Shown: positions 2-14,285 of the stretch, piece after piece
Layout: each line of letters opens with the position of its first letter
How positions within the stretch are numbered: position 1 is the stretch's first letter
Origin: Massilimicrobiota sp. An134
GTDB taxonomy: Bacteria > Bacillota_I > Bacilli_A > Erysipelotrichales > Coprobacillaceae
Length of the DNA stretch: 33,940 nucleotides
Assembly: GCF_002160815.1 (NCBI RefSeq)
Contig: NZ_NFLH01000026.1
Location: forward strand, 1 to 33,940
Direction: 5' to 3'
Notes under the pieces: generated by a model
Database searches by the model: none
What the model saw: only the letters and a program-made list of their open reading frames with translations
What the model was told of the DNA's origin: nothing
Made by a program: the position numbers and the translations under genes

Positions 2-235
2 AGACTCAACTTTGGTCGGGAGGGTTTCATCTTTTTTTCTTTCTATAGATTTCAGAAGATATATCCTGATAATACCATTATAGAATTTCCCGTGATTTTA
101 AACCAGCATAAGAGAAAACAAAAAAAGAGATTTCCCGTAAAACTTATTCGTTTTGGGAAACCCCGTGACTTCTTAGACTATCTTTTTTTCAATTTTTATG
201 TGATAAAAAAGGATTCTTATGCATTGATAGGGTAA
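2..235 (+). CDS. Possible C-terminal end of an unknown protein cut by the left edge
   Basis: One frame stays open from the first bases to a TAA at 233-235. That is 77 codons without a stop in very AT-rich DNA, which is unusual by chance. No start is visible, so if real this is the tail of a gene that begins outside the window. The translation is basic and aromatic, with two FPV motifs encoded by the repeated ATTTCCCGT, and I do not recognise it. The TAA overlaps the ribosome site of the lipoprotein at 250. The frame also runs through a hairpin at 131-160, which argues against coding, so this could simply be open non-coding DNA. Confidence 0.28.
   Translation, partial: RLNFGREGFIFFSFYRFQKIYPDNTIIEFPVILNQHKRKQKKRFPVKLIRFGKPRDFLDYLFFNFYVIKKDSYALIG
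115..160 (-). terminator. Hairpin with a minus-strand T-run
   Basis: TTTCCC (131-136) pairs with GGGAAA (155-160), and AAAAC (139-143) pairs with GTTTT (150-154), with a 2-nt bulge and a 6-nt loop. An A-rich stretch at 115-127 gives a T-run only when read on the minus strand, so as a terminator it would serve leftward transcripts. No minus-strand gene lies nearby to its right, so the role is uncertain. Confidence 0.3.
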
Positions 236-1521: not shown

Positions 1522-1579
1522 TTAACATAAAATTAATATAAACTTTACAAAGATTGAAAGACATAACTATCTATATAAT
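1522..1579 (+). promoter_or_regulatory. PhoP-box-like array and -10 element before the sigma-factor operon
   Basis: TTAACA (1522-1527), TTAATA (1533-1538) and TTTACA (1544-1549) repeat at exactly 11 bp with AT-rich 5-nt spacers. This is the layout of Firmicute PhoP boxes. A TATAAT at 1574-1579 has no -35 hexamer at the normal distance, as expected for an activator-dependent promoter. The array would lie at roughly -64 to -37 from the predicted start. The match is by pattern, and the regulator is not in the window. Confidence 0.6.
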
Positions 1580-1609
1580 GTGATATTAACATTATGGGAG
1601 AGATAAGTG

Positions 1610-2128: not shown

Positions 2129-3091
2129 TTGAAAAATAAAGATATAAAAAGAAAAATAAAAGAAGAGTTTCAAGATATTCATATGCCTTCAAAGAAAGAA
2201 AAACTGCTGGAAGATATTCAATTTGTTCAACCTATTCAAGAAGACAAACATAAAAATAAACATTTCAATATCAAATGGCAGTTATCAATATTAACCATTG
2301 CTTGTATATACATCTTTTCATTTATAACTTTACAAACCCAAGATGCTTATTCCATATCATTTGAAGTCAATCCAAGTATTGAACTTAAAGTCAATAATCA
2401 AAGACGTGTTGATGATGTGATTTGTCATAATGATGATGCTGTACTTGTTTTAGATGACATGGATTTAAAAAATACAGATTTGGATGTCGCTGTCAATGCT
2501 GTGATTGGAAGCATGTTTAAACATGGCTATATTAGCGAAGCTAAAAATTCAGTCTTGGTCAGTGTACAGGGAAGTGATCAAGAAAAAAGAAATGCATTAA
2601 AGCAAGATGTCGCAACGGATGTGAAAGATATATTATCTGGCTATTCATTAGAAGCTTCAGTTGTTTCACAGGATTATGATTTTTCTAAAGAAAGAGAAGC
2701 ACTCGCAAAGCAATATGGAATCTCTGTTGGAAAAGTTACATTAATACAAAAATTAATTAATGTTAGTCCTAACTATGATTTTGAAGATTTAATTCATTTA
2801 TCTATTAATGATTTAAATACATTGATACATTACAAACATTTGAATTTTAAGTCTATTACGATTGATGGTGTGGAAAGTCATAGTGGTTATTTAACAAATG
2901 AACAGGTGAAATCAAAAGTTTTACAACATGCACATGTCAATGAAGAAAGTGTTTATGAATATCGTGATGATTTGGATGTTCAGGATAACCAGCTTATATA
3001 TATTGTTGAATTTACAGATGAATTTGCTAAGTATCATTATAAAGTGAATGCGATTAGTGGAGAGATTGTATCATTTGAAAGTGAAATGTAG
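2129..3091 (+). CDS. RsgI-like transmembrane anti-sigma factor
   Basis: The protein probably holds the upstream sigma factor inactive at the membrane. Residues 1-50 are charged and cytoplasmic and would bind sigma. Residues about 51-68 form the single membrane helix. Residues about 73-205 are the extracellular RsgI middle domain with EVNPS (Asn81-Pro82), the reported self-cleavage bond that primes regulated proteolysis. The C-terminal roughly 65 residues look like a PepSY domain, ending with a typical 'vnaisGeiv' strand. The start is TTG at 2129, 8 nt after GGAGG (2116-2120); no ATG fits. It lies 3 bp after the sigma gene and 43 bp before the VTC gene. Unlike classical RsgI, it has no recognisable carbohydrate-binding module, so the signal is probably not a polysaccharide. 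Its paralogue at 250 lacks the sigma-binding and membrane parts. Confidence 0.82.
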   Translation: MKNKDIKRKIKEEFQDIHMPSKKEKLLEDIQFVQPIQEDKHKNKHFNIKWQLSILTIACIYIFSFITLQTQDAYSISFEVNPSIELKVNNQRRVDDVICHNDDAVLVLDDMDLKNTDLDVAVNAVIGSMFKHGYISEAKNSVLVSVQGSDQEKRNALKQDVATDVKDILSGYSLEASVVSQDYDFSKEREALAKQYGISVGKVTLIQKLINVSPNYDFEDLIHLSINDLNTLIHYKHLNFKSITIDGVESHSGYLTNEQVKSKVLQHAHVNEESVYEYRDDLDVQDNQLIYIVEFTDEFAKYHYKVNAISGEIVSFESEM

Positions 3092-3134: not shown

Positions 3135-3827
3135 ATGATTTTTGAGTATCAGCCAGTCACTTATCGACATGAAATGAAACATAGAATCAATCCACTGGAA
3201 GCTCAAATATTAACGAGTCGCTTTGATGTCTTATTTCAACAAGACAAATATAGTCAAAAAGATGGCTTTTATCATGTGCATAGTCTCTATTTTGATACAC
3301 CTTATGACCAGGCTCTAAAAGAAAAACTAGCTGGTGTTTCTCAAAGAGAGAAATTTCGCATTCGTTATTATAATCATGATTTAAGTTTTATACGTTTAGA
3401 AAAGAAAATCAAACATAATGGATTATGTGCTAAACAAACAGCACGTCTATCTGTTGAACAGGTTCAAAATATTTTAAATGGAGAAGTTGATTTTCTATTA
3501 AAAAGTGAAAATCCATTGATGATAGACTTCTACAGTCAAATCAAAGGAAAATTATTACAGCCAAGTGTAATTGTTTCTTATCAAAGACAGGCATATGTCT
3601 ATGAAATATCACGTGTTCGATTAACCATTGACCATCATCTTTGTACATATCAAAATAAAAAGGATTTTTTAAATCTTAAACATGGAATATCAATTGACAA
3701 TCATTATATCTTAGAAGTGAAATATAATGAATTTTTACCAGAAATTGTGAAAATGTCAGTACAAGGTATTTCACAAAAAACATCATCATATTCAAAATTT
3801 GCGCAATGTCGCATGATGGATTGGTAG
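3135..3827 (+). CDS. VTC-domain polyphosphate polymerase
   Basis: This is a single VTC domain of 230 residues, the fold of the yeast Vtc4 catalytic tunnel that builds inorganic polyphosphate from ATP. The basic tunnel residues can be picked out: RHEMKHR near the N-terminus (residues 11-17), KFRIRYY (Arg75, Arg77), LEKKIK (89-94), Lys100, Arg151, the RVRLTID strand (160-166), and the metal-binding LEVKY with Glu194. A closing SSYSKF motif is also present. GGGGGAGG precedes the ATG by 8 nt. It sits between the anti-sigma and a DUF4956 membrane protein, an arrangement often seen with CotH-type kinases. The domain is soluble, so membrane association or product export would depend on the next gene. 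The nucleotide substrate is inferred from the family. Confidence 0.85.
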   Translation: MIFEYQPVTYRHEMKHRINPLEAQILTSRFDVLFQQDKYSQKDGFYHVHSLYFDTPYDQALKEKLAGVSQREKFRIRYYNHDLSFIRLEKKIKHNGLCAKQTARLSVEQVQNILNGEVDFLLKSENPLMIDFYSQIKGKLLQPSVIVSYQRQAYVYEISRVRLTIDHHLCTYQNKKDFLNLKHGISIDNHYILEVKYNEFLPEIVKMSVQGISQKTSSYSKFAQCRMMDW

Positions 3828-3841
3828 AAAGAAGGGAAAGG

Positions 3842-4513
3842 ATGAGTTTTCAGGATATTTTTAAATCAAACTTTTTAGAAAATGTCAATGCAGTGACATT
3901 ATTAGATATGGGTATTGCGCTTGTTTTAGCTTTTACAATGGGATTGTTTATTTTCTTTGTTTATAAGAAAAGTTATAGTGGATTGATGTATTCATCAAGC
4001 TTTGCGACAACGCTTATTGCATTGACAATGATTACAACACTTGTTATTTTAGCAATCACAAGTAATATTATTTTATCTTTAGGAATGGTTGGGGCACTTT
4101 CTATTGTGAGATTTCGTACAGCCATTAAAGAACCTATGGATATAGCTTTTCTTTTCTGGAGTATTGCGGTGGGAATTGTTTTGGCAGCAGGACTTATTCC
4201 ACTGGCAGTCATTGGCAGTCTTTTTATAGGAATCATACTGATTGTTTTTTCAAATCAAAAGAATATTCAAAAGCCCTATATTTTAGTTGTCCATTGTGAT
4301 AATACAGATCATGAACAGATGGCTATGGAATTTATTCAAAGACATGTAGATGCCTGTTCTTTGAAAAGTAAAAGTATAAAGCCAGATTGTATAGAATTGA
4401 ATTATGAAGTGAGACTTAAGCAGCAGGAAACACTTTTTATCAATGAATTATCCAAGAAGGAAGGCATTCTTTATACTGTGATGGTTTCTTATAATGGAGA
4501 TTATATGAATTAG
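3842..4513 (+). CDS. DUF4956 family membrane protein
   Basis: The N-terminal half carries about four hydrophobic helices (roughly residues 19-41, 48-68, 71-86 and 101-137). The conserved segment GALSIVRFRTAIKEP, typical of DUF4956 proteins, lies between the third and fourth. The last roughly 80 residues are a soluble alpha/beta domain. The family has no proven biochemical role but commonly accompanies VTC and CotH genes, so a membrane partner or channel for the polyphosphate polymerase is plausible. An upstream in-frame ATG at 3806 overlaps the VTC gene. I prefer 3842, which has GAAGGGAAAGG just before it and leaves a 14-bp gap. It is followed after 3 bp by the CotH gene. Confidence 0.8.
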   Translation: MSFQDIFKSNFLENVNAVTLLDMGIALVLAFTMGLFIFFVYKKSYSGLMYSSSFATTLIALTMITTLVILAITSNIILSLGMVGALSIVRFRTAIKEPMDIAFLFWSIAVGIVLAAGLIPLAVIGSLFIGIILIVFSNQKNIQKPYILVVHCDNTDHEQMAMEFIQRHVDACSLKSKSIKPDCIELNYEVRLKQQETLFINELSKKEGILYTVMVSYNGDYMN

Positions 4514-4516
4514 ATT

Positions 4517-5911
4517 ATGATAAAAAGTAAGTTTATGGATGGCATTGTCATTGTTTGTATCTGTATATCACTTATATTTACGATTGGCTTTATGTTTTTT
4601 GATCATTGGGGAATAGAACCAGCCCACACATCTCCACCATATATGAATAAGCTATTTGATAATCAACGTGTTCATACGATTGATATTGAATTAGATAATC
4701 CGGAATCTTTTTTTGATCAGGCAGCAAATAAAGACTATCATGTCTGTGCCATAACGATTGATGGAGAAAAGTTTGATATGGTTGGATTAAGGGTTAAGGG
4801 TCATAATTCATTAGAACTGATTGACAGGTATCAATCAGATCGTTTTAGTCTTAAAATAGAGTTTGATCATTATGATGAAAATTATCATTATTATGGATTA
4901 GATAAGTTTACTTTAGACTGTTCTTTTCAAGATAATGCTTATCTTAAAAATTTTATGACCTATGATATGATGTCTTTTATGGGAGTCCCCACACCACTCA
5001 CAAGTTATGTTTGGGTGACAATCAATCAACAGGATTGGGGCCTCTTTCTTGCAATCGAAGAGCCAGAAGAAGCTTTCGCAAGAAGACATTTTGGAAAAGA
5101 TTATGGCATATTATATAAACCTGGATATACAGATGTTTATGCAGCTAATAAGGATTTAGCACTTCAATATATTGATGACCGTATTGAATCTTATCCTAAC
5201 CTTTTTGATAATGCGAAATTTGATATTGATAGAGAAGATAAAGAAAGATTAATTCAATCACTTAAAATATTAGATGAAAATAAAGATTTAACCAAAGCTG
5301 TCAATATTGATGAAGTATTAAGATATTTTGTTGTACAGGTCTTTGTGGTGAATTTAGATAGTTATCTGGGGCCAACAGGACATAATTATTTCTTATATGA
5401 AGAAGATGGTATCATTTCAATGCTTCCTTGGGATTATAATTTGGCTTATGGAACTTATGCATTAGGAATGCCAAATCCCAGCAATGATACAACGCAATAT
5501 GTGAATTTTCCAATAAATACGCCATATACCAAAGAAGTCATGTTAAACAGACCATTGTATCATCATGCGATGCTACATGATGACTATTATCAACAGTACC
5601 ATGAATACTTTGATCAATTCATAAGTGATTATTTTGAAAGTGGGTATTTTGAAAAGAAGGTTAAAGATACTACAAAAATGATTGATTCTTATATTCAAAA
5701 AGATCCGACTGCATTTTGTTCGTATCAGGATCATCTTTTAGGAATAGAAACATTTCAAGAGTTCTGTCAGTTAAGAGCACAAAGTGTGAGAGGACAACTC
5801 AATGGAACATTACCTTCCACGATTGCCCAACAGGATGAATCTATTGTAAGAATTGATGCTTCTCATATTCATTTGGAAGATATGGGAGAAATTCTCGATT
5901 TATATACATAA
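4517..5911 (+). CDS. Membrane-anchored CotH-family kinase-like protein
   Basis: This 464-residue protein has an N-terminal membrane helix (residues about 9-28) and an extracellular CotH domain. CotH proteins are atypical kinases; the Bacillus spore-coat CotH phosphorylates CotB and CotG. Visible family motifs are GLRVKGHNS (90-98), YVWVTIN...WGLFLAIEEP (165-183), VNLDSY...GHNYFLYE (278-295) and the metal-binding PWDYN (304-308). It is the last gene of the sigma operon and ends at a strong terminator. The start ATG lies only 3 bp after the DUF4956 stop. GGAG is 17 nt away, so translation probably depends on coupling. The substrate is unknown. Nothing else here points to spores, so an envelope phosphotransfer role is more likely than coat assembly. 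Confidence 0.82.
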   Translation: MIKSKFMDGIVIVCICISLIFTIGFMFFDHWGIEPAHTSPPYMNKLFDNQRVHTIDIELDNPESFFDQAANKDYHVCAITIDGEKFDMVGLRVKGHNSLELIDRYQSDRFSLKIEFDHYDENYHYYGLDKFTLDCSFQDNAYLKNFMTYDMMSFMGVPTPLTSYVWVTINQQDWGLFLAIEEPEEAFARRHFGKDYGILYKPGYTDVYAANKDLALQYIDDRIESYPNLFDNAKFDIDREDKERLIQSLKILDENKDLTKAVNIDEVLRYFVVQVFVVNLDSYLGPTGHNYFLYEEDGIISMLPWDYNLAYGTYALGMPNPSNDTTQYVNFPINTPYTKEVMLNRPLYHHAMLHDDYYQQYHEYFDQFISDYFESGYFEKKVKDTTKMIDSYIQKDPTAFCSYQDHLLGIETFQEFCQLRAQSVRGQLNGTLPSTIAQQDESIVRIDASHIHLEDMGEILDLYT

Positions 5912-5946
5912 AAGGTGTACTCTTTGTTTTGAGTACACCCTTTTGT
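5910..5946. terminator. Bidirectional terminator between convergent genes
   Basis: GGTGTACTC (5914-5922) pairs with GAGTACACC (5931-5939) around an 8-nt loop, flanked by A-run and T-run. It ends the CotH operon and the oppositely transcribed GH1 gene. Confidence 0.92.
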
Positions 5947-8455: not shown

Positions 8456-9758
8456 AATTGTAACAATTGGTGGTGGTTCTTCCTATACACCAGAGCTTAT
8501 TGAAGGATTTATCAAAAGATATGATGAATTACCTGTTAGAGAATTATGGCTTGTTGATATTGAAGAAGGGAAACATAAGTTGGAAATTGTAGGAAATCTT
8601 GCAAAAAGAATGGTGAAAAAAGCAGGAATCCCTATGAAGATTTATATGACTCTTGATCGTCAGGAAGCATTGAAAGATGCAGATTTTGTTACAACTCAAT
8701 TTAGAGTTGGACAGTTAGATGCCAGAGAAAAAGATGAATTGATTCCTTTAAAATATGGTGTTATTGGACAAGAAACAAATGGTCCAGGAGGTATGTTTAA
8801 AGCTTTAAGAACAATACCTGTTATCTTTGATATTATTAAAGATTGTGAAAAATTATGTCCAAACGCATGGATTATTTCATTTACGAATCCATCAGGAATT
8901 AATGCCGAAGCTGTTTTTAGACATACAGGATGGAAGAAATTTATTGGTTTATGTAATGGACCAGTGAATATGATTAAAGATATTGAACATATTTTAAATG
9001 TTCAAGAAAATGATGAATTAGATGTTAAAATCGGTGGTATCAATCATATGATTTATGCATTAGATATTACATTGAATGGAGAAAATGCGAATCGAAAATT
9101 GATTGATACAATGATTGATCAGGGAAATAGTGAATCTTTGAAAAATATTGTAGATATACCTTGGTCAAAAGAGTTTTTAAATAGTTATGGATATTTAGGT
9201 ATTGGATATTTACGCTATTACTTACAAAAACAACAAATGTTAGAACATTGTCAGGAAGATGCTGCAAAAGGACAATGTCGAGCACAAGTTGTTAAAAAGG
9301 TTGAAAAAGAATTATTTGAAAAATATAAAGATGAAAATCTTGATGTTAAACCAAAAGAATTGGAACAACGTGGTGGAGCATATTATAGTGATGCAGCCTG
9401 CAACTTGATTTCGTCATTATATAATGATAAAGGTGATATACAAGTTGTTGATACATTAAATAAAGGTGCTATTTCTAATATGCCTGATGATGTTGTGGTA
9501 GAAGTGAGCTGTAAAATCACAAAAGATGGACCTGTTCCTATCCCAGTCGGAGAGCTTCCTTTACAAACAGTTGGTTTAATTCATCAGTTAAAAGCTTTTG
9601 AAATTTTAACAACAAATGTTGCACTAAGTGGAAATTATGATGATGCATTAGTTGCGATGACAATTAACCCTCTTGTTCAAAGTGAAATCACTGCTAAAAA
9701 GATATTAGATGAAATGCTAGAAGCCCATAAAAAATACCTACCTCAATTTTATAAATAA
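8442..9758 (+). CDS. GH4 family 6-phospho-beta-glycosidase (NAD- and Mn-dependent)
   Basis: GH4 enzymes cleave 6-phosphoglycosides by a redox-elimination mechanism using NAD+ and a divalent metal. The Rossmann start is VKIVTIGGGSSYTPEL, the metal site uses Cys171 in GLCNGP and His202 in GGINHM, and the family segment ETNGPGGMFKALRTIP is intact. The 438-residue length matches the LicH/CelF/ChbF group. Overlap with nagB by 14 bp suggests a substrate containing glucosamine, such as chitobiose phosphate. In E. coli the GH4 enzyme ChbF acts on chitobiose-6-phosphate. The exact sugar cannot be read from the sequence; cellobiose phosphate remains possible. Confidence 0.9.
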   Translation: MKSVKIVTIGGGSSYTPELIEGFIKRYDELPVRELWLVDIEEGKHKLEIVGNLAKRMVKKAGIPMKIYMTLDRQEALKDADFVTTQFRVGQLDAREKDELIPLKYGVIGQETNGPGGMFKALRTIPVIFDIIKDCEKLCPNAWIISFTNPSGINAEAVFRHTGWKKFIGLCNGPVNMIKDIEHILNVQENDELDVKIGGINHMIYALDITLNGENANRKLIDTMIDQGNSESLKNIVDIPWSKEFLNSYGYLGIGYLRYYLQKQQMLEHCQEDAAKGQCRAQVVKKVEKELFEKYKDENLDVKPKELEQRGGAYYSDAACNLISSLYNDKGDIQVVDTLNKGAISNMPDDVVVEVSCKITKDGPVPIPVGELPLQTVGLIHQLKAFEILTTNVALSGNYDDALVAMTINPLVQSEITAKKILDEMLEAHKKYLPQFYK

Positions 9759-9762
9759 TGAT

Positions 9763-9795
9763 AAAAAGACTTCAATTGAATTTTGAAGTCTTTTT
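9763..9795. terminator. Bidirectional terminator after GH4 and the antiporter
   Basis: AAAAAGACTTCAA (9763-9775) pairs with TTGAAGTCTTTTT (9783-9795), a 13-bp perfect stem. It separates the convergent GH4 and antiporter genes. Confidence 0.92.
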
Positions 9796-12101: not shown

Positions 12102-13559
12102 CTAATTTAATGCACAATAACCTGTTTTTTCAATAATATATTGTCCCTGTGAAGAGAGAAGATAGTCTTTTAATTTTTTTACATTTTCTTTTTGATTAGA
12201 TTTTAAAGTCACACAATATAAATAAGTAGATATAGGATATGTCTGATTTTTAATATTTTCAGTCGTTGGCTCAACACCATCAACAGATAATATTTTTACA
12301 TTTTGTTCTTGATGAAGCCCTTCTAAAAAGTATCTAAATGTATATCCGATGGCATCTTTTTCGCCATTATATTGAGCTGTATCAGTAATAATACCGGTCA
12401 TTGCTGAAACATATTCGTATTGAAGAGGTTCCTTTAATGAAACATCTCCCATGAAATGGGTCATCATAGATTGACTGCCAGATTTTTCAGGTCTTTGAAA
12501 AGCAAGAATATCTTTGTTTTGTCCACCAACTTCCTGCCAGTTTGTAATATCGCCATGATAGATATCTTTAATTTGTTGCGTCGATAAATGAGAAACAGGA
12601 TTATTCTCATTAACAAAGAATACAAAAGCTTCCTGACCGATAGGTGTATATTCAAATTCAACACCAGCTGCTTTGGCTTCTGCTAATTGTGACTTTGATG
12701 GTTTAGCCCCAAAGAACATATCAACTTCACCATTGATTAAACGTGTATAACCTACAGATGTATTGGTGAATGTGACAATTTTGCCATTGGTATTATAATA
12801 ATTGTAGTCTTCTGTTTCACTATAGGCTTTTTCTATCTGATCAATATCTTTATAGACAGCTTTCGCAATGGCACTGTAGACAGGATAACAGGCTTCAGCC
12901 CCATCAAGAACAGGCATATCTTCTTTATTTTCAATGATAAAGGTACTTGGTTCTTGAAGTTCTACAAGTTGACTATCTTCAGTATATGGATAAAAAGGAG
13001 ATAAGTCAGTGCTGGAATAACCATTCATGTAGTCAAAATCATGTCCGCCCTTAAATTTTTGAGAAGGGCTATTCTGATAAATGTACAGACTGGTCGTTGT
13101 TGTTATTATCATGACTAATGACCATATAGTGATACGACGTGTTTGGATTTGAGGTTTTGTCATAGCGTAAATGAAAATGAGATGGGCAAGAAGAATGATA
13201 ATAGGACTGATAAAAACAACGGAGTAATTTCCAAAAGTCGTAGATGATAAAATCAATGGACTAAAAGGAAGGGTAATAATATAGAAGATATTCCAGTAGG
13301 GAGAAGATAAATAACCTTGAGAAAGAATAAAAGAAATACATAGGGCTATTGAAATCAATAGAACAAGGAAAGCTTGAAAAAGAAAATAGTCTTTTTGAAG
13401 ATTGTTTTTTCTTTTGAGCATAAATGTGTAAATCCATAAAAAGAGAATCATGATAGGAAGATAAAGTTCAGGTACATACATAAATCCAATAGCAGGTATA
13501 GAGAGAAAAAAATAAAGTAAGATGTAACGTGAAAAAAAGTAATATAAATATTGTTTCAT
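12102..13559 (-). CDS. Membrane-fused PstS-like phosphate-binding protein
   Basis: The N-terminal roughly 165 residues hold about five hydrophobic helices. The rest is a PBP-like domain of the phosphate-binding PstS type, facing out. Family features are DGAEACYPVYSAIAKAVY (the ligand-binding helix start), EAFVFFVNENNPVSHL, IKDIYHGDITNWQEVGG, and the QRPEKSGSQ loop that in PstS supplies Arg and Ser contacts to phosphate. Normal PstS is a lipoprotein without such a membrane region. No pstC, pstA or pstB is nearby, so this may be a sensor or receptor rather than a transporter subunit. A GTG at 13568 is possible, but AGGAAGG is best spaced for the ATG at 13559. A PhoP-box-like array lies upstream at 13641. 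Confidence 0.8.
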   Translation of the reverse strand: MKQYLYYFFSRYILLYFFLSIPAIGFMYVPELYLPIMILFLWIYTFMLKRKNNLQKDYFLFQAFLVLLISIALCISFILSQGYLSSPYWNIFYIITLPFSPLILSSTTFGNYSVVFISPIIILLAHLIFIYAMTKPQIQTRRITIWSLVMIITTTTSLYIYQNSPSQKFKGGHDFDYMNGYSSTDLSPFYPYTEDSQLVELQEPSTFIIENKEDMPVLDGAEACYPVYSAIAKAVYKDIDQIEKAYSETEDYNYYNTNGKIVTFTNTSVGYTRLINGEVDMFFGAKPSKSQLAEAKAAGVEFEYTPIGQEAFVFFVNENNPVSHLSTQQIKDIYHGDITNWQEVGGQNKDILAFQRPEKSGSQSMMTHFMGDVSLKEPLQYEYVSAMTGIITDTAQYNGEKDAIGYTFRYFLEGLHQEQNVKILSVDGVEPTTENIKNQTYPISTYLYCVTLKSNQKENVKKLKDYLLSSQGQYIIEKTGYCALN

Positions 13560-13640
13560 AAGGCTCACCTTCCTACTTTTATTATAATATAAAGATGTGT
13601 ACGATTAATGGAAATATGATGATGAAAACATATTTTTTAT

Positions 13641-13710
13641 TTTACATAAAATTAACTTAAACTTCATATTAACAAATCGCAAAGCCAAGTGGATTATGAC
13701 ATGATATAAA
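13641..13710 (+). promoter_or_regulatory. PhoP-box-like array in the divergent region next to the PstS-like gene
   Basis: TTTACA (13641-13646), TTAACT (13652-13657) and TTCATA (13663-13668) repeat at 11 bp, and a further TTAACA follows at 13669-13674. Spacers resemble those of the array at 1522. A TATAAA (13705-13710) reads toward the gene at 13752 without a -35. On the other strand TATAAT (13581-13586) precedes the PstS-like gene, also without a good -35. The site could control one or both directions. Confidence 0.55.
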
Positions 13711-13751: not shown

Positions 13752-14285
13752 ATGTTTATGAATCATATGAAAAAGTATTTGAATATGTATATTTTTTTAT
13801 TATTGCTTATCATTATTGGATGTCTTGTCATGATTATACGACATCAACCACAAGATTTTTATAGTTATCTTATTCAAGATATTTCACAAAGAGATCGTCA
13901 TTTTGAAACTATTGAAAAAATAAAATATCAGGATGGATTATATTTTATTTCTTATCTTGATGATCAAGCTCAAAGCCATTTGCTTATTTATGAAAATGTT
14001 CAGAATTTATGGATGAACGACTATCAGTTTTGGGGAGAGTCATCTTCTTCTCAGGATATAGATACTTTCAATTATGCAGATTCTCATCTGGCTATTATTG
14101 TTGTTTATGGGAAAAATAAACAAAATGCTTCTCAATATTCTTTTGTGAATGATGGGAAGGTTTATGAAAAAGAAATCAATGATTCCCATATCCTTGACAT
14201 TTATATGTTAGATGGGTCTTCTTGTCATATAGATGATTGGACTTTATATGACCAAAATCATCAAGTTATACAAAATGAGTTATAA
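13752..14285 (+). CDS. Unknown single-pass membrane protein, possibly phosphate-regulated
   Basis: I do not recognise this 177-residue protein. It has a short basic N-terminus, one hydrophobic helix (residues about 12-29), and a polar domain rich in Tyr, Asp and Gln, presumably outside the cell. AAGGAG sits 9 nt before the ATG. It is alone on its transcript, between the Pho-type array and a terminator, and diverges from the PstS-like gene. No similarity to the other orphan protein at 11549 was obvious beyond the N-terminal anchor layout. Confidence 0.65.
   Translation: MFMNHMKKYLNMYIFLLLLIIIGCLVMIIRHQPQDFYSYLIQDISQRDRHFETIEKIKYQDGLYFISYLDDQAQSHLLIYENVQNLWMNDYQFWGESSSSQDIDTFNYADSHLAIIVVYGKNKQNASQYSFVNDGKVYEKEINDSHILDIYMLDGSSCHIDDWTLYDQNHQVIQNEL

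Follow-up and report, generated by a model that had tools for sequence, protein, structure and literature searches.

A probable PhoP box ahead of a sigma/anti-sigma/VTC operon in Massilimicrobiota, with related arrays in gut Clostridia and Erysipelotrichia

The production of a sigma factor together with its own anti-sigma factor raises the question of what turns such an operon on and what then releases the sigma factor. The question is posed by an operon near the beginning of a 33,940-nucleotide stretch of DNA from Massilimicrobiota sp. An134 (contig NZ_NFLH01000026.1; the whole stretch is called the window). A sequence-only reading had proposed that phosphate starvation activates the operon through a PhoP box and that the operon, in turn, stores or handles phosphate.

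All the genes concerned are on the forward strand. The first of them (241-1521) encodes a lipoprotein with RsgI_M and PepSY domains (Pfam PF23750, 5.4e-26, and PF03413, 5.9e-7) and an Asn-rich tail, the putative partner of the anti-sigma factor. In many operons of this kind the anti-sigma factor comes with an RsgI_M lipoprotein whose long tail is of low complexity and rich in Asn, Asp and Tyr, with NYD-type repeats (locus L127, 6075-7001, reverse strand, is another example). The operon proper begins with the sigma factor gene (1607-2125), whose product contains the Pfam domains Sigma70_r2 and r4_2 and is SigM-like, below the NCBIfam cut-off; its earlier assignment to the ECF type is confirmed. 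It is followed by genes for an RsgI_M-type anti-sigma factor (2129-3091; PF23750, 3.7e-27), which contains RsgI_M and PepSY domains and one membrane span as read from its sequence, and a VTC-domain protein, a polyphosphate-polymerase-like triphosphate tunnel enzyme (3135-3827; PF09359, 5.3e-36). The next product is a DUF4956 membrane protein (3806-4513, the start probably being at 3842; PF16316), the C-terminal domain of which appears to resemble MgtC, as judged from a weak family match and from the fold match of a moderate model to 2lqj (E 2.4e-3). The last gene (4517-5911; PF08757, 1.1e-51) encodes a CotH kinase-family protein with an N-terminal membrane segment, and a terminator-like hairpin (5914-5939) marks the end of the operon. 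CotH proteins are described as kinases of the spore coat in work cited in PMC7112168.

The array in front of the sigma gene occupies positions 1522-1549 of the forward strand. It consists of the hexamers TTAACA (1522-1527), TTAATA (1533-1538, the middle repeat) and TTTACA (1544-1549) separated by five-nucleotide spacers, so that re-reading of the coordinates bears out the three TTAACA-like hexamers with a period of exactly 11 bp. In Bacillus, the PhoP box is built of TT(A/C/T)A(C/T)A repeats with an 11-bp period located upstream of the -10, and the array has all of these properties. It differs from the Bacillus box in its target, a sigma/anti-sigma operon, and in its constant +32 distance from the -10, as determined in this analysis. 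Direct repeats of 11 nt in the PhoP box have been described (PMC4415409). When the window is searched for TTWAYA-N5-TTWAYA-N5-TTWAYA with up to one mismatch allowed, 0.05 matches are expected and one is found; it is free of mismatches, and no other perfect match occurs in the 2.56-Mb genome. Allowing up to one mismatch gives 16 matches genome-wide, two of them at pstS (contig C13), one beside a second pstS (contig C23) and two overlapping ones adjoining a Na/Pi cotransporter gene. The backwards control, however, gives 18 matches; the loose pattern alone is therefore no proof, and counts obtained with it were dropped as evidence. Support for the array comes instead from a matrix trained on pst promoters and from conservation.

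The genome contains a pstSCAB-phoU-phoP-phoR cluster, in which pstS, pstC, pstA, pstB, phoU and the genes of an OmpR-type regulator and a histidine kinase form one row on contig C13 (pstA and pstB were assigned by position). The PhoPR pair on which the earlier proposal depends is thus present, and the pst genes of the same genome carry boxes similar to the array. Fifteen pst promoters from this genome and its relatives share the architecture TTTACATAATC-TTAACAAATTT-TATACA, in which the -10 starts 30-32 nt past the third hexamer. A 28-bp matrix trained solely on these 15 promoters was used to scan about 275 kb on both strands (548,266 positions, about 11% of the genome, training sites included). 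The site at 1522-1549 scores 24.4 bits and ranks fourth of the 548,266 positions. Only three pst sites of the same genome, all in the training set, rank higher, and the box of the Na/Pi cotransporter gene is level with it. In shuffled sequence, none of 4.4 million positions reaches 24.4 bits. The pst promoters also carry a weak fourth unit, and in-register comparison suggests a possible degenerate counterpart, TGAAAG, at 1555-1560 of the forward strand. The site fits less well to longer matrices that include this unit (20.9 and 18.2 bits), although these still place it next after the pst and Na/Pi sites. Beside a Na/Pi cotransporter gene there are four 11-bp TTWACA-like repeats, in the opposite orientation to the gene (locus L068, 3655-3693; contig C23, 107654-107692). 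The interpretation as a PhoP box has accordingly withstood the checks that can be made in silico: PhoPR is present, the pst boxes of the same genome are alike and the site scores as they do. We put the probability that 1522-1549 is a PhoP box at roughly 0.8.

The geometry of the promoter required a revision. The TATAAT taken earlier for the -10 does exist at 1574-1579 of the forward strand, 24 nt after the third hexamer. It is, however, unconserved in the sister species and lies 8 bp off the position common to related loci, and was for these reasons rejected. The -10 of the sigma operon is probably the extended element TGT-GATATT (1579-1587, forward strand), the GATATT hexamer of which (1582-1587) starts 32 nt after the third hexamer. 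TGN-GATATT is kept in four Massilimicrobiota genomes (G000-G003) and in a genome of another genus, G044, and in three of them it is one base farther downstream. When loci are aligned on the third hexamer, a -10 hexamer is found at exactly +32 in 10 of 17, and at most other offsets in about one of 17. The spacing therefore agrees between the window (+32), the pst promoters (30-32) and the loci as a set (peak at +32).

Conservation of the array extends over six species of three genera. In the sister Massilimicrobiota genomes G001-G003 arrays occur at the same place and score 21.4, 21.4 and 17.2 bits, the last being weak; three loci with a DUF4956 identity of about 80% belong to Massilimicrobiota. 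The whole operon was also found in two further genera, represented by G044 and G051. The G044 array is degenerate (12.5 bits) and yet the best of its locus, with an identical TGTGATATT. That of G051 differs in sequence, but again has TTAACA-like repeats ahead of TGCTATAAT and is the best of its locus. Among the closest sigma/anti-sigma paralogs that are not linked to VTC, the locus-best array is in this position in only one of 11. A paralogous ECF sigma gene found throughout the family (locus L077, 6535-7107, reverse strand; on contig C27 of G000) has one moderate upstream array, TTTAAAGGGCTTTAACACCGTTTTTATG, with a generic score of 15.1, which the pst matrix misses.

A search with a DUF4956 alignment gave 80 loci, mostly from Clostridia and Erysipelotrichia; the anti-sigma protein used as a query against named genomes gave no matches. 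The 80 loci contain 30 sigma genes, 27 of them of the SigI type, an identity verified on one representative (L127), which has region 2 and the SigI C-terminal domain and lacks region 4. Downstream of the SigI gene there are usually genes for an RsgI_M anti-sigma factor and an RsgI_M lipoprotein. When three-unit arrays with an 11-bp period were scored over each whole locus and both strands, 23 of the 30 sigma genes had the best array of their locus no more than 320 bp upstream, as opposed to 8 of 499 other genes (Fisher p ~1e-27, with loci that are not fully independent and form 18 SigI groups at 80% identity). Upstream of 26 sigma genes, the best score averages 14.7 when the period is 11, against 3.5-5.9 for periods of 7-10 and 12-17. 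Upstream arrays of at least 14 bits are found for 69% of these 26 genes versus 1% of 494 other upstream regions. Among 36 operons headed by VTC and lacking a sigma gene, only 11% reach 14 bits, which indicates that Pho control mostly follows the sigma-headed form. Several of the array-bearing genomes have matching repeats before pstS too. The SigI operons of L162, L173, L192 and L221 are without an array. Beside the L173 operon, on the opposite strand, is a gene for a second, distant DUF4956 protein of about 23% identity (9098-9790, reverse strand). A PhoP-type site recurs before matching sigma/anti-sigma/VTC operons in many gut Clostridia and Erysipelotrichia, where a membrane-gated sigma factor is probably turned on by phosphate starvation.

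In 16 of 23 SigI operons a second promoter, ACCCC-N-CGTAT, is situated between the array and the sigI gene (L150, L153, L155, L157, L167, L178, L179 and others). This promoter also precedes 20 of 53 RsgI_M genes, as compared with only 10 of 258 other genes. Its -10 agrees with the CGWA motif reported for SigI (PMC10575876), and these promoters probably represent autoregulation. A SigI promoter beside the array would imply two layers of control, PhoP first and self-amplification by the sigma factor afterwards. The window has a candidate ECF counterpart of this promoter, TGTGATAAA-N13-GCATTGATA (199-229, forward strand), kept upstream of the lipoprotein gene in the sister genomes; it may be autoregulatory, the evidence being weaker than for the SigI promoters. 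The site is the only perfect match in the genome to a pattern of which it is also the source. A genome search with this pattern, aimed at other genes controlled by the ECF sigma factor, revealed no regulon, the sole one-mismatch match (contig C20) lying inside a gene.

Three other explanations of the array have to be weighed against activation by PhoP. The box might be real but serve PhoP to repress or merely tune the operon, with the main control exerted by the sigma factor at the promoter of the lipoprotein gene. The candidate promoter at 199-229 could indeed read through that gene into the operon, and the 16 of 23 SigI-type relatives with a SigI promoter between box and gene are in line with such an arrangement. 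The box is, however, on the same strand and at the activation distance of the pst promoters, and this explanation is unlikely. Slightly less likely still is the binding of another OmpR-family regulator, such as WalR, to the repeats, in which case the operon would answer to the state of the cell wall and not to phosphate. The repeat to which WalR-type regulators bind also has an 11-bp period and is nearly the same when taken from the opposite strand: the reverse complement of TTWACA, TGTWAA, is near the WalR consensus. About 19 OmpR-type DNA-binding domains are encoded in the genome, and the anti-sigma factor, CotH and the MgtC-like protein are envelope proteins, as a WalR target would suggest. 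Against this, the strand, the number of repeats, the 11-bp register and the distance to the -10 all match the pst promoters of this genome and its relatives, and the scoring matrix was trained on pst genes only.

It is very improbable that the array is a chance resemblance in AT-rich intergenic DNA and that the operon is driven by an ordinary sigma-A promoter whose -10 is the TATAAT at 1574. The AT-richness of the region and the similar frequency of the loose pattern and its backwards control (16 versus 18 at up to one mismatch) would be expected from chance, but the matrix score and the shuffled sequences, the presence of the array in six species of three genera, the specificity for period 11 over 26 sigma-headed operons and the lack of conservation of TATAAT are not. 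Activation by PhoP remains the preferred explanation.

Among the known systems closest to the window pair are those of SigI and RsgI in Bacillus and Clostridium thermocellum (PMC10575876, PMC12203970), which likewise have an RsgI_M domain with an Asn-Pro dipeptide in a membrane anti-sigma factor encoded beside the sigma gene. Signalling by RsgI starts with self-cleavage of its periplasmic domain (PMC12203970). In the window, Asn-Pro is kept by both the anti-sigma factor, where it lies in FEVNPSIEL, and the lipoprotein; among the relatives it is present in 57 of 58 RsgI_M proteins. In RsgI, this dipeptide is where the self-cleavage takes place. The window sigma factor, however, is of the ECF type with regions 2 and 4, whereas SigI has region 2 and a C-terminal domain and no region 4, and no carbohydrate-binding module was found in the window system. 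The RsgI_N domain (PF12791) has no match in the anti-sigma factor of the window; it is above the cut-off in L127 and below it in L179 and L167. The window pair is therefore not a member of the SigI-RsgI family, since the anti-sigma factor is without RsgI_N and the sigma factor is not SigI. It nevertheless probably works like one.

From the computed identity of the box, its conservation, the promoter geometry and the gene families, a mechanism can be proposed, the later steps of which are less certain than the box itself. Under starvation, PhoP~P would bind the three, perhaps four, 11-bp repeats and activate a sigma-A promoter with the extended -10 TGT-GATATT, giving a transcript for the ECF sigma factor, the membrane anti-sigma factor, VTC, DUF4956 and CotH. 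Starvation would only arm the system, because the anti-sigma factor is co-produced with the sigma factor. An extracytoplasmic signal, read by the RsgI_M domain of the autoproteolytic type and perhaps by the lipoprotein partner, would free the sigma factor, which would then amplify its own operon via the promoter before the lipoprotein gene. The likely task of the effectors would be to synthesize or alter either a polymer containing phosphate or a phosphorylated component of the surface. The most extended form of the proposal is tentative and falls a little short of even odds: a two-key system of gut Clostridia and Erysipelotrichia in which PhoP arms SigI-RsgI (ECF/RsgI_M in Massilimicrobiota and relatives), an autoproteolytic extracytoplasmic anti-sigma factor fires it, the VTC/MgtC-like/CotH output builds or phosphorylates a surface polymer, and the PhoP promoter has been kept through an exchange of sigma class. 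It would tie phosphate starvation to envelope signalling of the SigI/RsgI type across abundant gut bacteria, and, with the PhoP box retained while the sigma class was exchanged, it would offer a useful case of regulatory rewiring. It would also supply a physiological condition for expression of the unexplained bacterial VTC-DUF4956-CotH set, making the function of the set testable.

The output need not be stored phosphate, as had been suggested. The model of the VTC protein (pLDDT 93) has yeast Vtc4 as its best fold match in the PDB (Z 18.4 over 218 residues), and a sequence search of the PDB with the protein and its profile found no relative. Residues R11, E13, K15, R75, R77, E89, K91, K100, R162, E194, K196, K221 and R226 are invariant in 40 relatives. 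The fold and these basic and acidic residues are consistent with a protein that makes intracellular polyphosphate under PhoP, a function compatible with the PhoP box. The fold by itself, however, shows no activity, other tunnel enzymes being hydrolases or cyclases, and the same VTC/DUF4956/CotH set also accompanies pel exopolysaccharide operons (PMC7112168). Since a full Ppk1 gene is present elsewhere in the genome, polyphosphate storage by VTC is only one possibility, and a doubtful one.

Control of a sigma/anti-sigma operon by the Pho system is not without precedent, although the earlier reading knew of no such link in the literature. The vreA-vreI-vreR operon (PUMA3) of Pseudomonas aeruginosa is controlled through PhoB (PMC4971064, PMC7035377). 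There too, a starvation regulator at a pho box drives a sigma/anti-sigma operon, and the sigma factor is presumably freed by an additional signal. It differs in its TonB-type cell-surface signalling, in its Gram-negative host, in the additional requirement for PhoB at the sigma targets and in the absence of VTC, DUF4956, CotH and RsgI_M. The C. perfringens locus NELoc-2 (CP4_0458-0465; PMC2879425) has genes for SigI, a hypothetical protein, VTC and CotH in that order, with a further protein at the place of DUF4956 between the last two; SigI stands there in place of ECF, and the paper gives the genes in a list. The pel accessory genes (PMC7112168) belong to the same VTC/DUF4956/CotH families, but are tied to an exopolysaccharide cluster and no sigma pair is described with them. 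No paper in the literature searched, which includes few from subscription journals, describes SigI/RsgI or VTC operons under Pho control.

A second PhoP-box-like array in the window, TTTACATAAAATTAACTTAAACTTCATA (13641-13668, forward strand), has the next-best score, 22.6 bits. It sits between a PstS-like gene (12102-13568, reverse strand) and an open reading frame at 13752-14285 of the forward strand, and has a counterpart in G003 (L103, 17.5 bits).
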